DNA from: a virus
Virus record (IMG/VR): IMGVR_UViG_3300011013_000105
Span: 1-23,032 of that record
Reading direction: 5' to 3' (one strand)
Length of the DNA: 23,032 nt
In this document: piece by piece, positions 3,652-21,634 of the stretch
How positions within the stretch are numbered: the stretch's first letter is position 1
Layout: each line of letters starts with the position of its first letter
Translations under genes and position numbers: made by a program
The notes under the pieces: model-generated
The model's input: the letters and a program-made list of their open reading frames with translations, nothing else
The model's database searches: none
What the model was told of the DNA's origin: nothing

Positions 3652-3845
3652 TGTCAGAGCTTTACATATACGAAAAAATGTTGAAGAATATCCGCGAACG
3701 GAAAGATGTGGTAGCAGATGCCCTATGTCATGGGCCTGTACCAGATTTTACCGCATTCAAGGAACTCCGCGCAAAACTCGCGGAACTTGCAATAACAGAA
3801 CAGGATCTTAGAGACCTGCTAGAAAAGGTGGAAGATGATGAGTAA
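3651..3845 (+). CDS. Small helical protein of unknown function
   Basis: 64 aa, mostly charged and probably helical, with a Leu-rich heptad-like C-terminus (FKELRAKLAELAITEQDLRDLLEKVEDDE). No signal peptide or membrane segment. Its ATG shares the last A of the endolysin stop codon (TAATG), so expression is probably by reinitiation. It overlaps the GroES-like gene by 11 nt. The position between lysis and head genes does not assign a role; a small head-assembly or adaptor helper is possible but unproven. Confidence 0.6.
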   Translation: MSELYIYEKMLKNIRERKDVVADALCHGPVPDFTAFKELRAKLAELAITEQDLRDLLEKVEDDE

Positions 3846-4326
3846 AACACTATTGGTCCCCGATCATTATGTGGACCAAAAACCAAAAGAACCCCCAAAA
3901 ACAAAACAGAAGATAGGTGTTCTAGAAGAAGCATACGTTCGTGCTGAAGATCGTTTTTTAGACCCTTCAAAAATTACAGATACTGTTATGGGTAGATTGC
4001 CAGAACCTACAGGGTGGCGAGTTTTATTGCTACCGTATCAAGGTAAAAAGCAAACGGATGGCGGTATTTTGTTGCCAACAGAGGTTAGAGAGAAAGAAGC
4101 ATTAGGAACTGTTTGTGGTTACGTGCTGAAAGTAGGGCCTCTGGCTTATTTAGATGCAGATAAGTTTGGTGAAAACTCAGAGCCTTGGTGTAAAAAAGGT
4201 GATTGGGTTATTTTTGGAAGGTATGCAGGCAGTCGGTTTAAAATAGAAGGTGGTGAGGTTCGTCTTCTTAACGATGATGAAATCTTAGCTCGTATAACTG
4301 ATCCTGACGATATATTACATTATTAG
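3835..4326 (+). CDS. GroES-like co-chaperonin (Cpn10 family) with N-terminal extension
   Basis: 163 aa. Co-chaperonins cap GroEL and help fold capsid proteins, as T4 gp31 does. The Cpn10 fold is recognisable from about residue 59: TGWRVLLLPY, the mobile loop with GGILLP (76-81, the hydrophobic GroEL-contacting tripeptide), GTVCGYVLKVGP, then KKGDWVIFGRYAG and EVRLLNDDEILARI, which matches the GroES C-terminus. The roughly 55-residue charged N-terminal extension is absent from bacterial GroES. Start is ATGATG at 3835/3838, after AAGGTGG at about 3825-3831. Its place immediately before the scaffold and capsid genes supports a role in capsid folding with host GroEL, since no phage GroEL is seen. 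Confidence 0.87.
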   Translation: MMSKTLLVPDHYVDQKPKEPPKTKQKIGVLEEAYVRAEDRFLDPSKITDTVMGRLPEPTGWRVLLLPYQGKKQTDGGILLPTEVREKEALGTVCGYVLKVGPLAYLDADKFGENSEPWCKKGDWVIFGRYAGSRFKIEGGEVRLLNDDEILARITDPDDILHY

Positions 4327-9178: not shown

Positions 9179-9352
9179 ATGGCAAAACAAACTAAAAAAG
9201 GCGGGGGCAAAAAACCTCCTGGACTTTATGCCAATATCCATGCAAAAAGAAAAAGGATAGCTGCAGGAAGCGGTGAAAAAATGCGTAGGGTTGGACAAAA
9301 GGGCGCTCCTAAAAAAGGTGTATTTGCAAAAATTAAAAGAAAGACAACATAA
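9179..9352 (+). CDS. Small very basic conserved phage protein (GLYANIHAKRKRIAAGSGEK type)
   Basis: 57 aa, 19 of them Lys/Arg and only one acidic residue. I place the start at the ATG at 9179, with GAGG at 9169-9172 six nt upstream; an in-frame ATG at 9158 would add seven unconserved-looking residues. The central motif LYANIHAKRKRIAAGSGEKMR followed by GQKGAPKK (about 39-46) recurs in many marine phages, where the function is unknown. The charge suggests nucleic-acid binding or packaging with the genome; that is inference. Its stop overlaps the next ATG (TAATG). Confidence 0.7.
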   Translation: MAKQTKKGGGKKPPGLYANIHAKRKRIAAGSGEKMRRVGQKGAPKKGVFAKIKRKTT

Positions 9353-9687
9353 TGGCAAAAAAAACTAAAAAAGCACCACCAAAGCCTAAAAGTGCTAAAG
9401 AAGCAAGATTTCGTAAAGATATGAAAGAACTAGGTAAAGATCCCGAAACGGTTAAATACCTACGAGAGCAAGCTAAACGAAATGGACCTGTAAAAGAAGA
9501 CCCACCACCTAAACCAAAGAAAAAACCAAAACCAGTTAAAAAAAGAGGAGGGGGAGAAGTGAAATACCCTAAAAAAATGAATCGTGGCGGTAAAGTATCA
9601 ATGCCTAAGAAAATGTCTCGTGGCGGTAAAGTATCAATGCCTAAGAAAATGGCCCGAGGTGGTGTAGTCAAAGGCCCTTACAGTTAA
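9352..9687 (+). CDS. Lys/Pro-rich basic protein with C-terminal tandem repeats
   Basis: 111 aa, about a third Lys/Arg. The N-terminal half (1-47) is a charged helix; a Pro/Lys-rich linker follows (48-65), then near-identical repeats of MPKKMSRGGKVS ending KMARGGVVKGPYS. RGGKV-type C-terminal repeats are frequent in small marine-phage proteins and could bind DNA or the virion interior. It shares the TAATG overlap with the preceding basic gene, so the two are probably co-translated. Function is not known. Confidence 0.7.
   Translation: MAKKTKKAPPKPKSAKEARFRKDMKELGKDPETVKYLREQAKRNGPVKEDPPPKPKKKPKPVKKRGGGEVKYPKKMNRGGKVSMPKKMSRGGKVSMPKKMARGGVVKGPYS
9582..9651. repeat. 36-bp tandem repeat inside the basic-protein gene
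   Basis: Bases 9582-9615 and 9618-9651 are identical over 34 nt with a period of 36 nt, encoding two RGGKVSMPKKM units; a third, diverged unit lies on each side. In-frame period keeps the gene open if copy number changes. Confidence 0.85.
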
Positions 9688-9697
9688 GGTGTAGTTT

Positions 9698-10600
9698 ATG
9701 GCAGTTTCTGGTTCTACTGATTTTGAGCTTGATGTAGCTGAGTACGTCGAGGAAGCATTTGAAAGGTGTGGCCTCGAGGTACGCACAGGTTATGACCTGA
9801 CGAGTGCGCGTAGATCTTTAAATTTATTGTTTGCTGATTGGGCTAACCGTGGTCTTAATAGATGGACAATAGAGCAAGCTACGTTGCCTCTAGCTTCAGG
9901 TATAGCTATATACCCTGCTGGAACACTTACTATGACAGTTGCAGCTAGTGGTTCCTTTTCAGTAGCAGAAACAATAACAGGAGGTACGAGCGGAGCTACA
10001 GCAAGTATAACCAGCATCCGCTCTTCTACTGCCATAGATATTACGGTGCCAGATGGAACTTTTGCAGCATCAGAAACAATAACAGGAGGTACGAGTTCAG
10101 CTACCACTACTGTTTCTTCTGCTATATCTTTAACACCGATACAATCTACTGTTGATATACTGTCTGCTGTGATTAGAACAGGAACTGGCTCTGGTCAAAC
10201 AGATGTTGCTATAAGTAGAATTAGTAGAGATGCTTTTATTAATCTTGCAAATAAAAACAGCACCTCACGCCCTACGCAGTTTTATATAGATAGATTGATT
10301 ACTCCTGAAATAAAACTTTGGCCTACTCCTGATAATAATACCTATACGTTAGTTTACGATAAACTTACTCGTATTGATGATGTAGATAACCCACAAAACA
10401 CAGTGGATGTGCCGTTTAGGTTTTACCCTTGTTTATCTGCAGGGTTAGCTTATTACGTTTCTTTGAAACGAGCGCCACAAAGAACCCAACTTCTTAAAGC
10501 AGTATACGAAGAAGAGTTTGAGCGAGCAGCAGCTGAAGATAGAGATAGAGCAAGTTTGAGTTTAACCCCTAGTCGTGATTATTATACGTTTATAAGATGA
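9698..10600 (+). CDS. Putative head-tail adaptor/connector protein with inserted beta-repeat module
   Basis: 300 aa. The N-terminus, AEYVEEAFERCGLEVRTGYD, ARRSLNLLFADWANRGLN, is a helical block I recognise from connector-type proteins of marine podoviruses. The C-terminus returns to conserved helical sequence (PFRFYPCLSAGLAYYVSLKRAP, YEEEFERAAAEDRDR). Between them sit two copies of a 35-residue module containing ETITGGTS (about 91-98 and 126-133). The same module occurs in the adaptor gene at 10896. A role at the portal-tail interface is inferred from position and helical composition. The P22 gp4-like class is possible but not certain. Confidence 0.65.
   Translation: MAVSGSTDFELDVAEYVEEAFERCGLEVRTGYDLTSARRSLNLLFADWANRGLNRWTIEQATLPLASGIAIYPAGTLTMTVAASGSFSVAETITGGTSGATASITSIRSSTAIDITVPDGTFAASETITGGTSSATTTVSSAISLTPIQSTVDILSAVIRTGTGSGQTDVAISRISRDAFINLANKNSTSRPTQFYIDRLITPEIKLWPTPDNNTYTLVYDKLTRIDDVDNPQNTVDVPFRFYPCLSAGLAYYVSLKRAPQRTQLLKAVYEEEFERAAAEDRDRASLSLTPSRDYYTFIR
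9966..10095. repeat. Two ETITGGTS modules, period 105 nt
   Basis: Bases 9966-9990 and 10071-10095 are identical over 25 nt, exactly 105 nt (35 codons) apart. The same core with a few substitutions occurs twice, again 105 nt apart, in the gene at 10896-11750. Confidence 0.85.
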
Positions 10601-10899
10601 AGTATGTTTCTGGAAAATACGCTAGAGCGATTTGTGATAGGTGTGGGTTTGAATACCCATACACCTCATTGCAAAAAGAATGGAATGGCTTAAAAGTTTG
10701 TACAGATTGTTTTGAGCCTAAACATCCGCAATTAGAGCCTCCCCCACCACCATTTGAACCAGAAGCATTGTATGACCCAAGGCCAGATAGAGCGGAGGGC
10801 TTAGATGTTTTTGTTGGACAAAAAACATTCCCTGTTTTGTCAAATGTTTCCACACATGCAATTACTTCTATTGGTAAAGTAGAGGTTGTCATATCATGA
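10597..10899 (+). CDS. Zinc-ribbon protein between two connector genes
   Basis: 100 aa. Cys13-x2-Cys16 and Cys35-x2-Cys38, separated by 18 residues, form a four-cysteine zinc ribbon (CDRCGF ... KEWNGLKVCTDCFEPKHPQ). A Pro-rich segment follows (PPPPPFEPEA), then a short beta-rich C-terminus. The KEW.GL.VC..CF..KHPQ pattern is recurrent in marine phages beside connector genes. The gene overlaps its neighbours by 4 nt at each end (ATGA), so it is tightly coupled to both. It may be a small tail or connector component, or bind DNA in the channel; neither is proven. Confidence 0.75.
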   Translation: MKYVSGKYARAICDRCGFEYPYTSLQKEWNGLKVCTDCFEPKHPQLEPPPPPFEPEALYDPRPDRAEGLDVFVGQKTFPVLSNVSTHAITSIGKVEVVIS

Positions 10900-11750
10900 G
10901 TTTTACATATACCACTCTTAAAGATGCACTTAAAAACTACACGCAAAACACAGAAACTGTTTTTCTTAACTCTATGGATATGCTTATCCGTTTAGCAGAA
11001 GAGCGTATTTTGAAATCAACTCAATTAAATGTGTTTCAAAAAAATGTAACCGGAGCTCTTTCCTCAGGTAATGAGTATCTAGCTGTCCCTAGTGATTTTT
11101 TATCGCCACACTCACTTAGTATTACTAACAATAGTTTGTATGAGTATTTACAATTAAAAGAGTTAGAATTTGTCCAATCGTATAACCCTAATTCTTCCTC
11201 AACAGGAACCCCCAAATACTACGGACAATTTGATGTCGATTATTTTGTTTTAGCTCCTACTCCTGATTCAACGTATACGGTGAGTTTAAGCTATTTTTAT
11301 AGGCCCACTAGTTTGACTCAAAGTTTGTACCTTTTAAGTTTAAGCACTGTATCAGGCACGTTTGTTGTTGGTGAAACAATAACAGGGGGCACGAGTGGGC
11401 AAAGCTCCACAATATCTGTTGTTGAAAGTGCAACAAGCTTAACGGTTGGAATACCAAGTCAAAATTATACTGTTGGTGAAACAATAACAGGGGGCACGAG
11501 CGGTGCGACTGCTGTAATTACTGCCGTTGGTGCAGACACAACAAATAGTTGGTTAAGTGAAAATGCTGAAGTTGCATTATTATATGCTTCTCTTTCTGAG
11601 TGTTACCTTTTTATGAAAGGTGAACAAGATATGATGAATATGTATAACCAAAGATACGGAGAAGCAATCAATCGTCTTAAAAACTTTGGAGAAGCACTTG
11701 AGGTTACAGATGATTACTCCGCAGGGTATATAAAGAAGGCTAGAACGTAA
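10896..11750 (+). CDS. Phage adaptor protein (tail-connector type) with inserted repeat module
   Basis: 284 aa. The N-terminal MSFTYTTLKDALKNYTQNTE, AEERILKSTQLNVFQKN, YLAVPSDFLSPHSLSI and GTPKYYGQFDVDYFVLAPTP segments are hallmarks of the adaptor family of marine and SU10-like podoviruses, which joins portal to nozzle. The C-terminal helix WLSENAEVALLYASLSECYLFMKGE also fits. Between YFYRPTSLT and SWLSENAE, where relatives run almost directly from one to the other as I recall, this protein carries about 65 extra residues with two GETITGGTSG modules. The gene is coupled to its neighbours by a 4-nt ATGA overlap upstream and a 1-nt TAATG overlap downstream. Confidence 0.8.
   Translation: MSFTYTTLKDALKNYTQNTETVFLNSMDMLIRLAEERILKSTQLNVFQKNVTGALSSGNEYLAVPSDFLSPHSLSITNNSLYEYLQLKELEFVQSYNPNSSSTGTPKYYGQFDVDYFVLAPTPDSTYTVSLSYFYRPTSLTQSLYLLSLSTVSGTFVVGETITGGTSGQSSTISVVESATSLTVGIPSQNYTVGETITGGTSGATAVITAVGADTTNSWLSENAEVALLYASLSECYLFMKGEQDMMNMYNQRYGEAINRLKNFGEALEVTDDYSAGYIKKART
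11366..11500. repeat. Two GETITGGTSG modules, period 105 nt, in the adaptor gene
   Basis: Bases 11366-11395 and 11471-11500 are identical over 30 nt, exactly 105 nt apart. They differ from the copies at 9966-10095 by a few bases in the shared core, so copies within a gene are more alike than copies between genes. Confidence 0.85.
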
Positions 11751-12503: not shown

Positions 12504-12968
12504 ATGGCCGATGCTGTTGTTCCATATTTAGGTTGGGGAAGCCTTAGTCAAGCGTGGAACACTGGAACGTGGAATACTGATACAAATTCAATCATACCTG
12601 TTGCAACAGGAGCTTTTTCTGCTTCTAGCGTAACAGGAGATGCAAATTTTACGATAACTACTACAGATATTGTAGGAACTGGAGCATCAGGAACGGCCTC
12701 TACCGCTATAACAGCAACAATTACTGTTACAGGCATCGCAGGAACTGGAGGTTTATCTGCAGTTAGTATAACAGGAGATGCAAATTTTACGATAACTACT
12801 ACAGATATTGTTGCCACTGGAACGGTTAATGGTGTTACTGTAACAGGAGATGCAAATATTCCTATTGAAGTTACAGGAGCTGGCGCAACGGCAATCGTAG
12901 GGGTAGGGTTTGTTTGGGGTCTCAATTTACCTAGTCAAGACCCTAATTGGCAAGAAATAGCTGCATAA
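12504..12968 (+). CDS. Repeat-bearing beta-rich tail protein
   Basis: 154 aa. The ends are conserved-looking (MADAVVPYLGWGSLSQAWNT and a C-terminal NLPSQDPNWQEIAA), while the centre is three VTGDAN(F/I) units; two are identical through TGDANFTITTTDIV. Almost no charged residues in the centre. The ATG directly follows the upstream stop codon (12501-12503). A tail-surface or fibre-attachment role is likely from the neighbours; the expanded repeat suggests recent growth of the central domain. Confidence 0.7.
   Translation: MADAVVPYLGWGSLSQAWNTGTWNTDTNSIIPVATGAFSASSVTGDANFTITTTDIVGTGASGTASTAITATITVTGIAGTGGLSAVSITGDANFTITTTDIVATGTVNGVTVTGDANIPIEVTGAGATAIVGVGFVWGLNLPSQDPNWQEIAA
12631..12811. repeat. 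43-nt perfect direct repeat
   Basis: Bases 12631-12673 and 12769-12811 are identical over 43 nt, 138 nt (46 codons) apart. A third shorter copy (17 nt) is at 12841-12857. The absence of any synonymous change implies recent duplication or gene conversion. Confidence 0.88.
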
Positions 12969-14336: not shown

Positions 14337-15545
14337 ATGGCTCGGGGAAGAGGTGGCTTTGTAGGTGGTTATGATGGTCTTAGTGTACCTGATGCACCAA
14401 CTATAGGTGAAGCTACTGCTGGAAATACTCAAGTATCAATAGCATTTACTGCACCTTCTGATGTTGGTGATGATGCTATTACAGGGTATGCAGCTAAAGC
14501 CACTGATGGCACAAACACATTTAATGCTACAGGTTCATCTTCTCCTTTAACGATAACTGGTCTTACAAATGGAACTAGTTATACAGGGCAAGTATGGGCT
14601 ATCAATGATTATGGCGTTAGCCCATTATCTGCTGCTACTTCTAGTTTTACTCCTCAATTGGCTAGAGGATTGTTTATGGGAGGACAATCTGAAAAAAATG
14701 AGATAGATTACATTGATATTTCTACAACTGGTAATGCTACAGACTTTGGTAATTTAACTGAATGGAGGCAGTGGCTTTGTGGGTTTGGTAATAGTTCTAG
14801 AGCTATTGCATCAGCAGGACAAATAGCAAGTACCATTTATGGAAATAACAGTATGGACTATGTGACGATTGCCAGTACAGGCAATGCGTCAGATTTCGGC
14901 GATCTTACAACATCAAGAAAAGAACCAGCAGGTGCGGCAAGCAGTACAAGAGGAATAACTTATTCTGGTAAGAACGGTAGTAGTAGTAATACGAATGTAA
15001 TTGATTATGTGACGATAGCCTCAACGGGAAATGCAATAGATTTCGGTGATTCAGCTACTATGAGAGGATTAGCAACAGGTAATCTTAACAGCACTACAAG
15101 GGCTTGTTTTGCAGGAGGTTATAGTGAAAGTGGCGGTAATAGAAACACAATAGATTATATCACTATTGCCTCTACTGGAAACACTACAGATTTTGGGGAT
15201 ACAGTTGGTGCATCGGCTGGTATGGGTGGGTGTTCAAATAGTACAAGAGGTTTGATGTCTGGCCCTATTTCCGGTCTTACTAATAATAACACAATACAGT
15301 ATATCACGATAGCATCAACAGGTAACGCTACAGATTTTGGCGATCTTACAGCCGTAGCTAGTTACGGTTCGGGTTGTGCTAGTTCTCTTAGAGGAGTTAT
15401 GACGCTGGGTACGTCTGGTGGTAGTTACTCTAATGTTATGAATTATGTCACCATAGCTTCAACTGGTAATGGTACAGATTTCGGTGACTTAACAGTTGCA
15501 AGAGATGGTATGGGAGCTACCTCTTCTGCTCATGGAGGAACGTAG
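14337..15545 (+). CDS. Receptor-binding/fibre protein: fibronectin III domain plus six kelch-like repeats
   Basis: 402 aa. Residues 17-107 are a fibronectin type III domain (PDAPTIGEATAGNTQVSIAF ... TGLTNGTSYTGQVWAIN). Six repeats of about 48-50 residues follow, each with a Y(V/I)TIASTGNATDFGDLT-like core; the DFG triplets start at residues 136, 186, 236, 285, 333 and 381, each unit followed by a TRG...GG turn. Such arrays fold as beta-propellers and act on host surfaces, as kelch-like fibre proteins of marine phages are thought to do. AGGAG at about 14325-14329. First of three adjacent paralogues; it alone has the FNIII domain. Confidence 0.78.
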   Translation: MARGRGGFVGGYDGLSVPDAPTIGEATAGNTQVSIAFTAPSDVGDDAITGYAAKATDGTNTFNATGSSSPLTITGLTNGTSYTGQVWAINDYGVSPLSAATSSFTPQLARGLFMGGQSEKNEIDYIDISTTGNATDFGNLTEWRQWLCGFGNSSRAIASAGQIASTIYGNNSMDYVTIASTGNASDFGDLTTSRKEPAGAASSTRGITYSGKNGSSSNTNVIDYVTIASTGNAIDFGDSATMRGLATGNLNSTTRACFAGGYSESGGNRNTIDYITIASTGNTTDFGDTVGASAGMGGCSNSTRGLMSGPISGLTNNNTIQYITIASTGNATDFGDLTAVASYGSGCASSLRGVMTLGTSGGSYSNVMNYVTIASTGNGTDFGDLTVARDGMGATSSAHGGT

Positions 15546-15547
15546 TA

Positions 15548-17425
15548 ATGGCTCCATCTTATTCAGGCGTTTGGAGACTAAACACTCAGTACCAGTATAG
15601 AAGTCAATGGCCTCTTGATCCTAATCTTGAACCAGTAGGATTATTTGCAGGAGGACAAGATTCCTCTGCTGTAATAAACACAGTTCAAAAAATAGTACCG
15701 AGTATAGCAAGTGATGCTACAGACTTTGGAGATTTATCAGCAGTAAGACAGGCAACAGCAGGTGGAGGCAGTGATACTAGGTTTATTGTTGCTGGTGGGT
15801 ATCAGGCTTCAAAAGTAAATATTATAGAATACTTTACTTATACGACAGCAGGAAATGCAACAGATTTTGGAGATCTTGGAGCGACTAGAGATTTACTGTC
15901 TTCTACTTCTAATAATACTAGATTTATTACTATGGGAGGAGCCTCTGCAACAGACACAATAGAGTATGTCACCATAGCCAGTACAGGCAATGCCACAGAT
16001 TTTGGCGATCTCACTGCAACATTAGAAGAAGGTCATGTAGGTATTATATCTAGTTCCACAAGGGGTATACTTGCAGGAGGTAAAAAAGGTGGTAGTAGGG
16101 CTAACGTAATTGAATATCTCACTATTGCTAGTACAGGAAATGGTAGAGACTTTGGTGATATGACTGCTGCTAGAAATTTATTAGCAGGTGCATCTTCTAC
16201 AACTAGAGGATTAATGATTGGTGGAGATACTGGGTCAGGAACAGGAAGCAATGTAATTGATTATATAACAATTCAAAGTATGGGTAATGCGACAGACTTT
16301 GGTGATACTAGTGGAAATAGAACGACTAGCGCAGGTCTTGCATCTTCTACAAAAGCAATAGTTGGTGGTGGTAATAACAATGGAGCTCAAACAAATATTA
16401 TTGAATCAGTTACAATAGCATCCACTGGTAACGCTTCTGATTTTGGAGATCTATTAACAGTAAATACATTTCTTTCAGCAGGTTGTGCTGGTCAAGCATC
16501 AGTCCAACCAAATCTTTTACCATCTTTACCATCATCAGGTAACACTGGTTTATATACTTATGCAATCGATTCATTCTTACAATCAATAGATATAGCTTCT
16601 CTAGGAAACGGTGTGGCATTTGGTGATATAAGTTATGTATATGTAAATGGAACGTATGGTGCAGCTTCAAGTTCTACTAGATGTTGCTTTGGTGGTGGAG
16701 CCTTTACTCCTCCTGGAGGTAGTTTTGCTAGGCAAAATGTAATTGATTTATCCATATTTGCTACAAGAGGTTTAGGTACAGATTTTGGTGACTTAACGAC
16801 AGCAAGGCAAACAACAGGTGGATCTAATAGTACAAGAGGAATGTATGTAGGAGGACAACCAAGTTCTTATACAAATGTCGTTGACTATATAACTATTGCT
16901 AGTGCTAGTAACGCCACAGATTTTGGAGACTTGTCTGCCAATGTAGGTTTTCCTGCTGTTTCTGGAAACACAACAAGACTTCTTTCTTTAGGTGGTAGAA
17001 CTAGTACCTATATAAATACAATAGAATATTTTACAATATCGTCTACTGGTAATGCAACAGATTTTGGTGATCTTACGCAAGGTATAGGATTTAATGCAGC
17101 AACATCAAGTAGCACTAGAGTTGTAAATTGTGGAGGAACTGATGGTAGTTACACTAATGTTATGGATTATGTGACAACGGCTTCAACTGGAAACGCCACA
17201 GATTTCGGAGATCTCACTGTTGCAATAGGTCAGGGTGGTTGTTTCGGTAATAAAACTACAGGTATATGGGCTGGTGGATATGTTGGAGACGGCAGTAGCA
17301 CTGTAAGCACAATGATGAATTTTACAATAGCCTCAACAGGTAATGCCTCAAATTTTGGCGATCTAATAGCTAGTGCATATACAACAGGAGCAGCACAATC
17401 TAATGGACATGGAGGCATATCGTAA
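15548..17425 (+). CDS. Double kelch-like propeller fibre protein (12 repeats)
   Basis: 625 aa. A short N-terminal anchor (SGVWRLNTQ ... WPLDP, 6-25) resembles residues 27-46 of the next paralogue. Twelve repeats follow, with (D/A/N)FGD cores starting at 59, 106, 151, 201, 250, 298, 357, 412, 458, 505, 552 and 602. Spacing is 45-50 except around residue 312-345, where a low-complexity linker (CAGQASVQPNLLPSLPSS) separates two groups of six, so the protein looks like two six-repeat propellers in tandem. It is likely a surface fibre. It overlaps the next gene by 1 nt (TAATG). Confidence 0.78.
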   Translation: MAPSYSGVWRLNTQYQYRSQWPLDPNLEPVGLFAGGQDSSAVINTVQKIVPSIASDATDFGDLSAVRQATAGGGSDTRFIVAGGYQASKVNIIEYFTYTTAGNATDFGDLGATRDLLSSTSNNTRFITMGGASATDTIEYVTIASTGNATDFGDLTATLEEGHVGIISSSTRGILAGGKKGGSRANVIEYLTIASTGNGRDFGDMTAARNLLAGASSTTRGLMIGGDTGSGTGSNVIDYITIQSMGNATDFGDTSGNRTTSAGLASSTKAIVGGGNNNGAQTNIIESVTIASTGNASDFGDLLTVNTFLSAGCAGQASVQPNLLPSLPSSGNTGLYTYAIDSFLQSIDIASLGNGVAFGDISYVYVNGTYGAASSSTRCCFGGGAFTPPGGSFARQNVIDLSIFATRGLGTDFGDLTTARQTTGGSNSTRGMYVGGQPSSYTNVVDYITIASASNATDFGDLSANVGFPAVSGNTTRLLSLGGRTSTYINTIEYFTISSTGNATDFGDLTQGIGFNAATSSSTRVVNCGGTDGSYTNVMDYVTTASTGNATDFGDLTVAIGQGGCFGNKTTGIWAGGYVGDGSSTVSTMMNFTIASTGNASNFGDLIASAYTTGAAQSNGHGGIS

Positions 17426-18471
17426 TGACTGAAAGATATTTAGGCTCCATAATAACTGCAACCCCAGTTGAACCATCAGAGGGTTTTGAGAACAGTTTAG
17501 CATCTGGTGTGTGGCATTTACGTGATCCACTAATATTTGGTCAGGCAGGTGATTGGCCTACTGCTGGAAATACGACTAGTGTTGGTTTATTTATGGCTGG
17601 TTATGTTGGAACTGCTCCAGTAAACATAGTTGATAAAATAGTTCCAGAAACAACAGGTAATGCCACTGACTTTGGAGACACTTCTAATAATACATATCAT
17701 GGTGCTGGTTTTAGTTCTGATACGAGATCGATTGTTGCTGGAGGATATGGTTCTTCAGCAGCATTGAATGTAATAGAATACTTTACTTTTGCCAGTGCTG
17801 GTAATGCTACAGATTTTGGGGATCTAAATTTTACAGCATACGCTAGTACAGGTTTTTCAAACAATGCTAGAGGAATAGATGTATTGGGATACACTGCCTC
17901 TCCTTCTGCTGGATATTCGAATGTTCTTGAGTATGTAACGATAGCATCTACAGGTAACGCGACAGATTTTGGTGATACATCAATAGCACAAAGAGGAAAT
18001 GCAGGTGCATTAGCTAGTACAACTAGGGGTGTTATTGGTGGTGGGTATAATGGGGGAGCCAAAACAAATGTTATCGACTATGTAACGATAGCATCTACAG
18101 GTAACGCGACAGATTTCGGTGACTTAACTGAAGCAAGATTTAATCCAGCAGGAGCAGGTAGTAATACAAGAGGTATTTTTGCTGGTTCTGGAAGTGGAAC
18201 TTATGGAAATGTTATAGACTATATTACTATTGATTCAACAGGAAATGCTACTGATTTTGGCGATACGTTAGAAGTTCGTGATGGTTTAGCTGGTTTAGCT
18301 ACCTCTACAAAAGCAATATATGGAGGTGGTAGAAATGACTCAGGAGGTAGTACTATAATACAACAAGTTACGATAGCTACTACAGGTGATGCAACAGATT
18401 TCGGTGATTTAACTGCTGCTAAAAGTTTTGCTATGGGTGCTGGTTCTGGTGCTGATGCAGTACAAAGTTAA
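17425..18471 (+). CDS. Kelch-like propeller fibre protein (six repeats)
   Basis: 348 aa. Residues 1-52 (MTERYLGSIITATPVEPSEG ... SGVWHL ... DWPTAGN) form an attachment segment typical of marine-phage tail proteins. Six repeats follow, with DFG starting at 82, 130, 181, 230, 277 and 325. Each repeat runs NVIDYVTIASTGNATDFGDL-like text, a variable stretch, then TRG..GGG. Two repeats share a 38-nt identical DNA segment. No linker or second set of repeats is present, unlike the 15548 paralogue. It ends GADAVQS, without the GHGG-type end of its neighbours. Confidence 0.78.
   Translation: MTERYLGSIITATPVEPSEGFENSLASGVWHLRDPLIFGQAGDWPTAGNTTSVGLFMAGYVGTAPVNIVDKIVPETTGNATDFGDTSNNTYHGAGFSSDTRSIVAGGYGSSAALNVIEYFTFASAGNATDFGDLNFTAYASTGFSNNARGIDVLGYTASPSAGYSNVLEYVTIASTGNATDFGDTSIAQRGNAGALASTTRGVIGGGYNGGAKTNVIDYVTIASTGNATDFGDLTEARFNPAGAGSNTRGIFAGSGSGTYGNVIDYITIDSTGNATDFGDTLEVRDGLAGLATSTKAIYGGGRNDSGGSTIIQQVTIATTGDATDFGDLTAAKSFAMGAGSGADAVQS
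17932..18116. repeat. 38-nt identical segments in successive propeller repeats
   Basis: Bases 17932-17969 and 18079-18116 are identical over 38 nt, 147 nt (49 codons) apart, equal to one repeat length. Other repeats of the same gene differ at several synonymous positions over this core, so this pair was probably homogenised recently. Confidence 0.85.
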
Positions 18472-19708: not shown

Positions 19709-21634
19709 ATGCCTTTGACCAAATTAACTTTTCGTCCAGGAATTAACAAAGAAACTACTTCTTATTCTAACGAGGGTGGTTGGTTTGATTCAGACAAAGT
19801 GCGTTTTAGAGCAGGTTTTCCTGAAAAAATAGGCGGTTGGCTCAAAAAAGCAGCAGATGCGTTTCTTGGTTCTGCACGAGTATTGCATAATTGGACTACA
19901 TTAGATGGTGGAACTTTTATCGGTATAGGCACACATTTAAAATATTACCTTTTGGCAGGACAAACATTTTTTGATATTACCCCTGTTCGTTCAACTGTAA
20001 CAGGAGAAGCTACATTTGCCGCAACTAATGGCTCTTCTACTATAACTGTTACAGATAGCGGTCACGGAGCAATGCTAAATGATTTTGTTACTTTTACTTC
20101 TGCTGCTTCTTTAGGGGGAAATATTACTGCTGCGGTATTAAACCAAGAATATCAAATTACTTCTGTTCCTGATAGTAACACTTTTACAATACAAGCTAGA
20201 GCAGCGTCGACATCTATACAATCTATTACAACAACAAGTGGTTTAAACCCCTCCCTTGTAACAGCGAGTGGGAGTGATTCAGGTAATGGCGGTGGATCAA
20301 CTGTTGCGGCATATCAAGTAAATGTAGGTCTTGATGTTGCCGTTCCAGGAGTTGGCTGGAACGCAGGAGCATGGGGCAGAGGCACTTGGAACTCTGATGC
20401 AGATATAGCAGTAAGCACAAACAATTTAAGAATTTGGTCACACGATAACTTTGGTGAAGATTTACTATTAAATATTAGAGATGGGCAAATTGCATATTGG
20501 GATAAATCAGGGGGAACAGCAGCTAGAGCTGTTTTACTAAATTCACTGTCTGGGTCTACCTCAGCTCCTACGATAGCTAAACAGGTTTTAGTTTCCGATG
20601 TTGATAGACATGTGATTGCATTTGGTTGTGACGCTGCTGATAGTATTGGCACTCAAGACCCTTTGCTTATCAGGTTTGCAGATCAAGGCAGTTTGACAGA
20701 TTGGGCTTCTACGGCTACAAATACCGCAGGTGATTTAAAGCTTGGTGTTGGTTCTGAAATAATTAGAGCAGTCGAAACACGCCAACAAATCCTTGTGTTT
20801 ACAGATACCAGCGTACATGCGATGCAGTTTATTGGGCCTCCTTTTACTTTTGGATTAAGTACAATAGCAGATAATACAACTATCGCAGGGCCATTAACAG
20901 TAATTTCAGTACAAGATACTGTGTATTGGATGGGTAAAAATGAGTTTTATATGTATACAGGCACGATTCAAAGGATGCCTTGTAGTGTACGAGACCATGT
21001 GTTTTCTGACTTAAACTGGAATCAAGGCAGAAAAATAGTTTCTGGATTAAACTCCTCTTTTGCAGAAATTTGGTGGTTTTATCCTTCAGAAACAAGCGAT
21101 GAAAACGATAAGTATGTTGTCTACAATTACGAACAGCAAATTTGGTATACAGGTTCGTTAGCTAGAACAGCTTGGTTAGATAGGGGTATAGAAGCATACC
21201 CTGTAAGTGTAGGTACAGACCATTATGTATATGACCACGAAAAAGGTTTTGATGATGGCAGCACAGATCCAGCTTCGGCTCTTGATGCACATATAGAGTC
21301 AAGTCAATTTGATATAGGTGATGGTGATCAATTTACCTTTGTTCATCGTCTTATACCCGATATTACGTTTAGAAACTCTACAAATAGTTCACCTTCTGCT
21401 TTATTTACTTTGCAAACTAGAGTAAGTCCTGGAAGTGCTTATACACAAAATGACCCTAGTACAATCACACAGACAGTAGCAGAAAGCACCACTACTGTAG
21501 AGCAGTTTACAGATTTAGTGCATGTAAGATTACGAGGCAGGTCATTTGCTTTAAAGGTTTCTTCTTCTGATTTAGCAGCAGGCTGGAGGCTAGGCTCGCC
21601 AAGGGTAGATATAAGACCAGATGGGCGTAGGTAA
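19709..21634 (+). CDS. gp10/nozzle-like DNA-stabilisation tail protein
   Basis: 641 aa. N-terminal MPLTKLTFRPGINKETTSYS, GGWFDSDKVRFRAGFPEKIGGW is the hallmark of the P22 gp10-like (packaged DNA stabilisation) family in marine podoviruses. Repeated beta-propeller-like blocks follow (GQIAYWD, VLVSDVDRHVIAFGCD, QQILVFTDTSVHAMQFIGPPFTFG, VYWMGKNEFYMYTG) and a C-terminal RLRGRSFALKVSS..GWRLG..RVDIRPDGRR. An inserted beta domain (about 103-162, TFAATNGSSTITVTDSGHG and DFVTFTSAASLGG) resembles FCCH-like inserts seen in this family. It closes the DNA exit channel below the adaptor. Its last base overlaps the next ATG. Confidence 0.8.
   Translation: MPLTKLTFRPGINKETTSYSNEGGWFDSDKVRFRAGFPEKIGGWLKKAADAFLGSARVLHNWTTLDGGTFIGIGTHLKYYLLAGQTFFDITPVRSTVTGEATFAATNGSSTITVTDSGHGAMLNDFVTFTSAASLGGNITAAVLNQEYQITSVPDSNTFTIQARAASTSIQSITTTSGLNPSLVTASGSDSGNGGGSTVAAYQVNVGLDVAVPGVGWNAGAWGRGTWNSDADIAVSTNNLRIWSHDNFGEDLLLNIRDGQIAYWDKSGGTAARAVLLNSLSGSTSAPTIAKQVLVSDVDRHVIAFGCDAADSIGTQDPLLIRFADQGSLTDWASTATNTAGDLKLGVGSEIIRAVETRQQILVFTDTSVHAMQFIGPPFTFGLSTIADNTTIAGPLTVISVQDTVYWMGKNEFYMYTGTIQRMPCSVRDHVFSDLNWNQGRKIVSGLNSSFAEIWWFYPSETSDENDKYVVYNYEQQIWYTGSLARTAWLDRGIEAYPVSVGTDHYVYDHEKGFDDGSTDPASALDAHIESSQFDIGDGDQFTFVHRLIPDITFRNSTNSSPSALFTLQTRVSPGSAYTQNDPSTITQTVAESTTTVEQFTDLVHVRLRGRSFALKVSSSDLAAGWRLGSPRVDIRPDGRR

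Follow-up and report, generated by a model that had tools for sequence, protein, structure and literature searches.

Two nearby genes of a marine phage encode proteins that each contain the octapeptide ETITGGTS twice, which raises the question of what the repeated unit is, how it came to lie in both genes, and what it may do on the virion. The stretch of DNA analyzed here (the window) is a 23,032-base IMG/VR virus fragment whose closest named phages are DSL-LC04, Roseobacter phages CRP-901/902, Pelagibacter phages HTVC023P and HTVC027P, 023Pt_psg01, and Synechococcus phage MinM2. An initial annotation had proposed one mobile 35-residue repeat, copied between two adjacent connector genes, that may form a shared surface of two rings.

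Two adaptor proteins and a two-half domain

Both genes encode connector proteins, as had been proposed. The first (ad1; positions 9698–10600, plus strand, 300 aa) matched the Pfam family PF24175 (SU10_adaptor; E 8.9e-9) and PHROG 12985 (E 1.4e-27), and the second (ad2; 10896–11750, plus strand, 284 aa) matched PF24175 (E 4.1e-21) and PHROG 2941 (E 2.7e-22). The PF24175 scores of 36.5 bits for ad1 and 76.7 bits for ad2 exceed the curated cut-off of 27 bits. An AlphaFold2 model of ad1 (pLDDT 82.9) resembles solved podophage adaptors, most closely that of cyanophage A4 (9k09_d, E 2.4e-7), and also those of SU10 (7z47_B, E 2.4e-4), DEV, B2, VP1, GP4, and N4. Because of the SU10_adaptor matches and the matches of the ad1 model, we regard ad1 and ad2 as paralogous head-to-tail adaptors, the assignment resting on a predicted fold for ad1 and on sequence for ad2. 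Of the conserved helical connector folds described in the initial annotation, the helix bundle is borne out, but the proteins are not purely helical, as a beta domain is also present; this beta domain corresponds to the fibre-dock region of the SU10 and T7 adaptors. The order of portal, capsid, and adaptor genes in the window fits a portal-bound ring. Podophages carry one to three dodecameric adaptors (PMC11784390), and the paper on HTVC023P-type pelagiphages contains no statement on these adaptor proteins.

Several neighboring genes have features of their own. A small ORF between ad1 and ad2 (10597–10899) contains two CxxC pairs, is zinc-ribbon-like, and belongs to PHROG 28581; the cysteines are lost in its homologues from HTVC023P, HTVC027P, and CRP-901, and the homologues of HTVC027P and CRP-901 are far longer proteins. 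Upstream of ad1, a small, very basic protein (9352–9687) includes a 36-nt tandem repeat at 9568–9651 (PKKMxRGGKVSM, 2.3 copies), and an ORF at 3835–4326 resembles a GroES-type co-chaperonin, a function to which a gene at a similar place in Roseobacter phage CRP-901 is annotated. Downstream, a 154-aa protein (12504–12968) is made of another repeat (VTGDANFTITTTDIVGTG), with 79-nt DNA copies that are 86% identical, and found no match in Pfam or PHROG searches. Three successive large ORFs (14337–18471) contain many kelch-like repeats (YVTIASTGNATDFGDLT...) and are apparently paralogous. They are followed by a tail protein (19709–21634, plus strand; PHROG 3287, E 4.8e-66) that is termed nozzle-like by analogy and lacks the module in the window.

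The motif copies are placed with the same period in both adaptors, all on the plus strand. In ad1, a 25-nt sequence recurs exactly at 9966–9990 (copy A; ETITGGTS core at 9968–9991, residues 91–98) and 10071–10095 (copy B; core at 10073–10096, residues 126–133). In ad2, a 30-nt sequence recurs exactly at 11366–11395 (copy A; core at 11373–11396, residues 160–167) and 11471–11500 (copy B; core at 11478–11501, residues 195–202). The spacing between the motifs is exactly 105 nt in each gene, so that the two copies and the 105-nt period that had been noted are confirmed to the base. Copies were also correctly described as identical over 25–30 nt within a gene and different between genes: the longest exact match between ad1 and ad2 is 14 nt, and the 23-nt core differs at two synonymous positions. 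As codon shuffles (2000 per gene, in-frame offsets of 60–150 nt) never produced a repeat longer than 14 nt, the 25- and 30-nt repeats are not due to chance. Any two of the 35-residue halves, within or between genes, are identical at only 13–17 of 35 residues and 48–58 of 105 nucleotides, and the striking identity is therefore confined to the motif. A literature search for the motif returned a single match, an unrelated paper on hepatitis C.

The unit that carries the motif is larger than the proposed 35-residue repeat. Judged by its sequence, it is one domain of ~70–75 residues composed of two homologous 35-residue halves, occupying residues 76–150 of ad1 (9923–10147) and residues 144–213 of ad2 (11325–11534), with borders defined to within a few residues by clean gaps in relatives. 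Nearly all inserts that could be measured with the pattern used, which left out some genes, have one fixed size and two halves; inserts of one or three halves were not recognized among the measured carriers, and a model of the two-half unit matches most other carriers across both halves. The only exception in size was a longer and divergent ad2 insert of about 105 residues at the same site (L359:10571–11509). We rejected a recent duplication as the source of both halves, since half A is closer to half A of other genomes (0.71 in ad1, 0.55 in ad2) than to its own half B (0.40). Both inserts lie between the N-terminal and C-terminal helix pairs of the adaptors, that of ad1 close to where the beta domain begins and that of ad2, which was placed by alignment only, at its end and ahead of the C-terminal helices.

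The insert region of the ad1 model has a pLDDT of about 95, and when modeled alone the ad1 domain is predicted to form six strands (pLDDT 87, pTM 0.75), suggesting that it folds independently. Among solved structures, the isolated domain is structurally most like a beta domain in a chain of the T4 baseplate (PDB 5hx2_A, 1030 residues, which by its length we take to be gp7), with a TM score of 0.62 and a probability of 1.00, but kinship is not established because the E-value is 0.15 and the identity 14%. Four predicted viral structures in BFVD matched with E < 0.001, followed by weaker matches to neck gp14, baseplate gp53, and wedge initiators of the gp7 type. The Pfam search yielded no family for the ad1 domain and only two sub-threshold, unrelated matches for the ad2 domain; neither an Ig-like nor another named Pfam family matched the domain alone, and no description of it was found in our literature search.

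Optional presence and history of the inserts

The named relatives of the window lack the module in ad1 and ad2, and IMG/VR relatives provide clean empty sites in both genes. In ad1, the sequence ...YTLGADTIDILSAVIR aligns with ...YPAG-[75 aa]-TVDILSAVIR, and in ad2, ...RPTSLTAGADSGTTWLSENA aligns with ...RPTSLTQS-[~70 aa]-TTNSWLSENA. The module is thus an insert, as had been proposed: aligned relatives with and without it are separated by clean gaps, and they do not all carry it. When the insert columns were excluded from the trees, ad1 required at least six changes of state (four forced by well-supported branches) and ad2 at least five (two forced).

All four combinations of presence and absence in the two adaptors were found. 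To obtain frequencies blind to the insert, loci were gathered by their capsid protein and the insert was scored by length; of 33 loci with both adaptor genes, nine carried the insert in ad1 only, five in ad2 only, one in both, and 18 in neither. The frequency of both inserts is about that expected under independence. Linked presence in the two rings was thus not seen in this sample (both in 1 of 33), and a shared collar spanning two rings, as suggested in the initial annotation, is not required. Genomes without the insert suggest that the domain is dispensable. Its optional presence also fits a near-neutral passenger, a compact domain lacking any function that exposed loops can accommodate and recombination can spread, and both the predominance of insert-free genomes in the blind sample and the repeated gain or loss on the trees are in line with this. 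Where present, however, inserts are about as conserved as the adaptor cores (0.60 vs. 0.63 in ad1; 0.57 vs. 0.60 in ad2), which argues that they are held by selection, and the nearly fixed length and almost invariant motif likewise speak against a passenger, which we consider quite unlikely.

The inserts of the two genes form separate lineages. The ad1 and ad2 domains of the window are 36% identical, ad1 domains of other genomes are 53–91% identical to that of the window, and a weakly resolved tree of the domain, built from 77 columns, separates the inserts by gene and not by genome. The low identity and the grouping by gene imply that there was no recent copying of the domain between the adaptors, and that most changes in presence are better read as loss, or as exchange of alleles with and without the insert, than as fresh insertion. 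Recent copying from ad1 to ad2 is rejected on the same observations, and the proposal that the adjacent genes came to share one module by exchange is contradicted, since the inserts of either gene cluster with their counterparts in other genomes. The mobile repeat of the initial annotation could draw on the close proximity of two genes with the same motif and on codon identities between ad1 and ad2 that are higher within a genome (0.56–0.61) than between genomes (0.47–0.54; 14 genomes, non-independent). Against it stand the divergence and grouping described above, the two-half nature of the unit, and the absence of the second insert from most blind-sample genomes that carry one, and we consider it highly improbable. 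The most likely history consists of one or a few old insertions per site, followed by loss of the insert or by exchange of alleles with and without it between related phages by recombination.

Codon homogenization between motif copies

Separate evolution of the two halves since a single ancient duplication predicts that copy A of a gene resembles the copy B beside it no more than it resembles copy B of another genome. The two kinds of pairs were compared. Synonymous motif codons agreed more often within a gene than between genomes, at 0.53 vs. 0.36 in ad1 and 0.60 vs. 0.44 in ad2, an excess reached in 0 of 5000 shuffles of sequences that are related to one another. The excess is concentrated at homologous positions (synonymous identity of 0.46 vs. 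0.28 in ad1 and 0.58 vs. 0.40 in ad2) and not at non-homologous positions (0.32 vs. 0.27 and 0.37 vs. 0.39, respectively), by which an explanation through codon usage alone was rejected. Motif codons 2 and 5 of ad1 provide an example: ACT/GGT is found in both copies of one genome (L011) and ACA/GGA in both copies of the window, and in a third genome (L010) copy A reads ACT/GGT and copy B reads ACA/GGA. For the eight ad1 sequences most similar to that of the window, the difference was not significant (0.70 vs. 0.67).

No within-gene excess was found for the amino acids of the motif (0.83 vs. 0.82) or, in ad1, for the protein outside the motif (0.25 vs. 0.26). The homogenization that had been proposed thus occurs within genes at the DNA level, at synonymous sites of the motif, and does not extend to the repeat as a protein. 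Its simplest reading is that short-tract gene conversion or template switching acts between motif copies, in which case the two copies of a gene would keep exchanging short DNA tracts. The amino-acid result counts against conversion, because conversion should homogenize differing amino acids too. Selection would maintain the motif, probably for its part in structural turns of the domain.

Other carriers and a possible role at the neck

A search for the module in other phage proteins, which had been suggested together with the initial proposal, found it in many families of virion proteins. Our motif scan of IMG/VR matched at least 120 stretches, and among the matches listed the domain recurs in more than a dozen other virion-protein families of the neck, baseplate, and tail, including the head closure Hc2, a head-tail adaptor Ad2, several baseplate wedge families, a minor tail protein, the tail protein PHROG 376, and others. 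Carriers also include PHROG families with the name tail fibre. A tblastn search of named phages with the isolated domain yielded no match, most likely owing to the low-complexity filter. One genome (L181) carries the module in both adaptors and, cleanly inserted, also in its homologue of the nozzle-like protein at 19709–21634. In a collection of 84,980 prokaryote genomes, 29 loci had the DNA pattern and 21 of these had some match to the model, several of the matches being very weak, and a cellular origin of the domain is not suggested. PHROGs contain the domain only as part of several larger families, and it is here that several families of the tail, neck, and baseplate match one another. Because it is optional at one site among close relatives and occurs in several unrelated virion proteins, we conclude that the domain is an unnamed promiscuous accessory domain of phage virions and not a special mobile 35-residue repeat of two rings.

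Other inserts were observed at the same and related sites. HTVC027P carries a different plug-in domain (TTLTSAINATALTIPV... / TTLSGAITVDDTTLPL...) at the insert site of ad1 (L004:4001–4939), and its next gene (L004:4939–5811) contains a stretch similar in appearance to the TTLTSAINATALTIPV insert. This type shares the ad1 site with the ETITGGTS domain, from which its sequence differs as judged by eye, and recurs, cleanly inserted but at a different position, in a homologue of the nozzle-like protein (L168:1–1803). In 023Pt_psg01, ad1 (L005:3617–4714) has about 130 extra N-terminal residues that by eye resemble a cupredoxin and that match parts of PHROGs for tail fibre and baseplate proteins. 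One might tentatively suppose that marine podophages swap a small set of plug-in beta-domains (ETITGGTS and TTLT types, and others) among a few surface loops of adaptors, nozzles, and fibres, with the recombination-prone DNA core of the ETITGGTS type itself helping exchange.

For the adaptors, structures of related phages point to a role at the neck surface. The DEV adaptor is encircled by a collar of fibres, and its insertion between helices 2 and 3 points outward (PMC10925440). The dock domain of the SU10 and T7 adaptors holds long tail fibres, and P22 and Sf6 have neither such fibres nor the dock domain (PMC9509320). By analogy with DEV and SU10, the inserts would face outward and be exposed on the virion, about twelve to each adaptor ring, where they would brace the ring or provide docking sites that position appendages. 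Because both inserts occupy the stretch that is outward in DEV and docks fibres in SU10 and T7, we prefer, with a probability of roughly 0.6, an accessory beta-domain in loops of virion proteins that here serves as an optional neck-surface add-on with a bracing or docking function. Participation in fibre attachment or in a collar would be one form of such a role.

A role in host-surface binding has been proposed for Ig-like domains on phages. The ETITGGTS domain may similarly act as an adhesin, a weak binder of host surfaces (e.g., of glycans) in many copies around the neck and tail, a reading that would suit its occurrence in surface-type proteins of many phages, including the tail fibre families, and the twelve or so copies that the adaptors would place outside. 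However, the insert evolves at about the rate of the adaptor core, unlike a host-range determinant or fast-evolving receptor binder, no carbohydrate-binding family matched in the Pfam search, and the domain also occurs in head-closure and baseplate-wedge families. We therefore consider an adhesin unlikely and retain neck decoration with bracing or docking as the preferred reading. Whatever its role, the domain is common in marine phages and has no Pfam family; its stretch may create false links between unrelated proteins in PHROGs, and naming it would clean up phage annotation. Clean pairs with and without the domain at fixed sites constitute a natural experiment on add-ons at the phage neck.

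With SU10 gp11, T7 gp11, DEV gp83, and the adaptor of cyanophage A4, ad1 and ad2 share the sequence family PF24175, and the solved adaptors have helix pairs flanking a beta domain, as does the predicted fold of ad1. What is inserted between helices 2 and 3 of DEV gp83 has been described as the dock-type domain proper (101 residues), whereas the adaptors of the window carry an extra domain of ~70–75 residues that is nested in the beta region (ad1) or lies at its end (ad2). The general kind of domain is already known: Fraser and colleagues reportedly described promiscuous accessory domains, Ig-like ones included, on the virion proteins of phages. The Ig-like domains are likewise small beta-domains that vary in presence between close relatives and occur in virion proteins unrelated to one another. 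The ETITGGTS domain differs from them in its two similar 35-residue halves and in having no Ig-like match in Pfam, and is a new, unnamed case of this kind.
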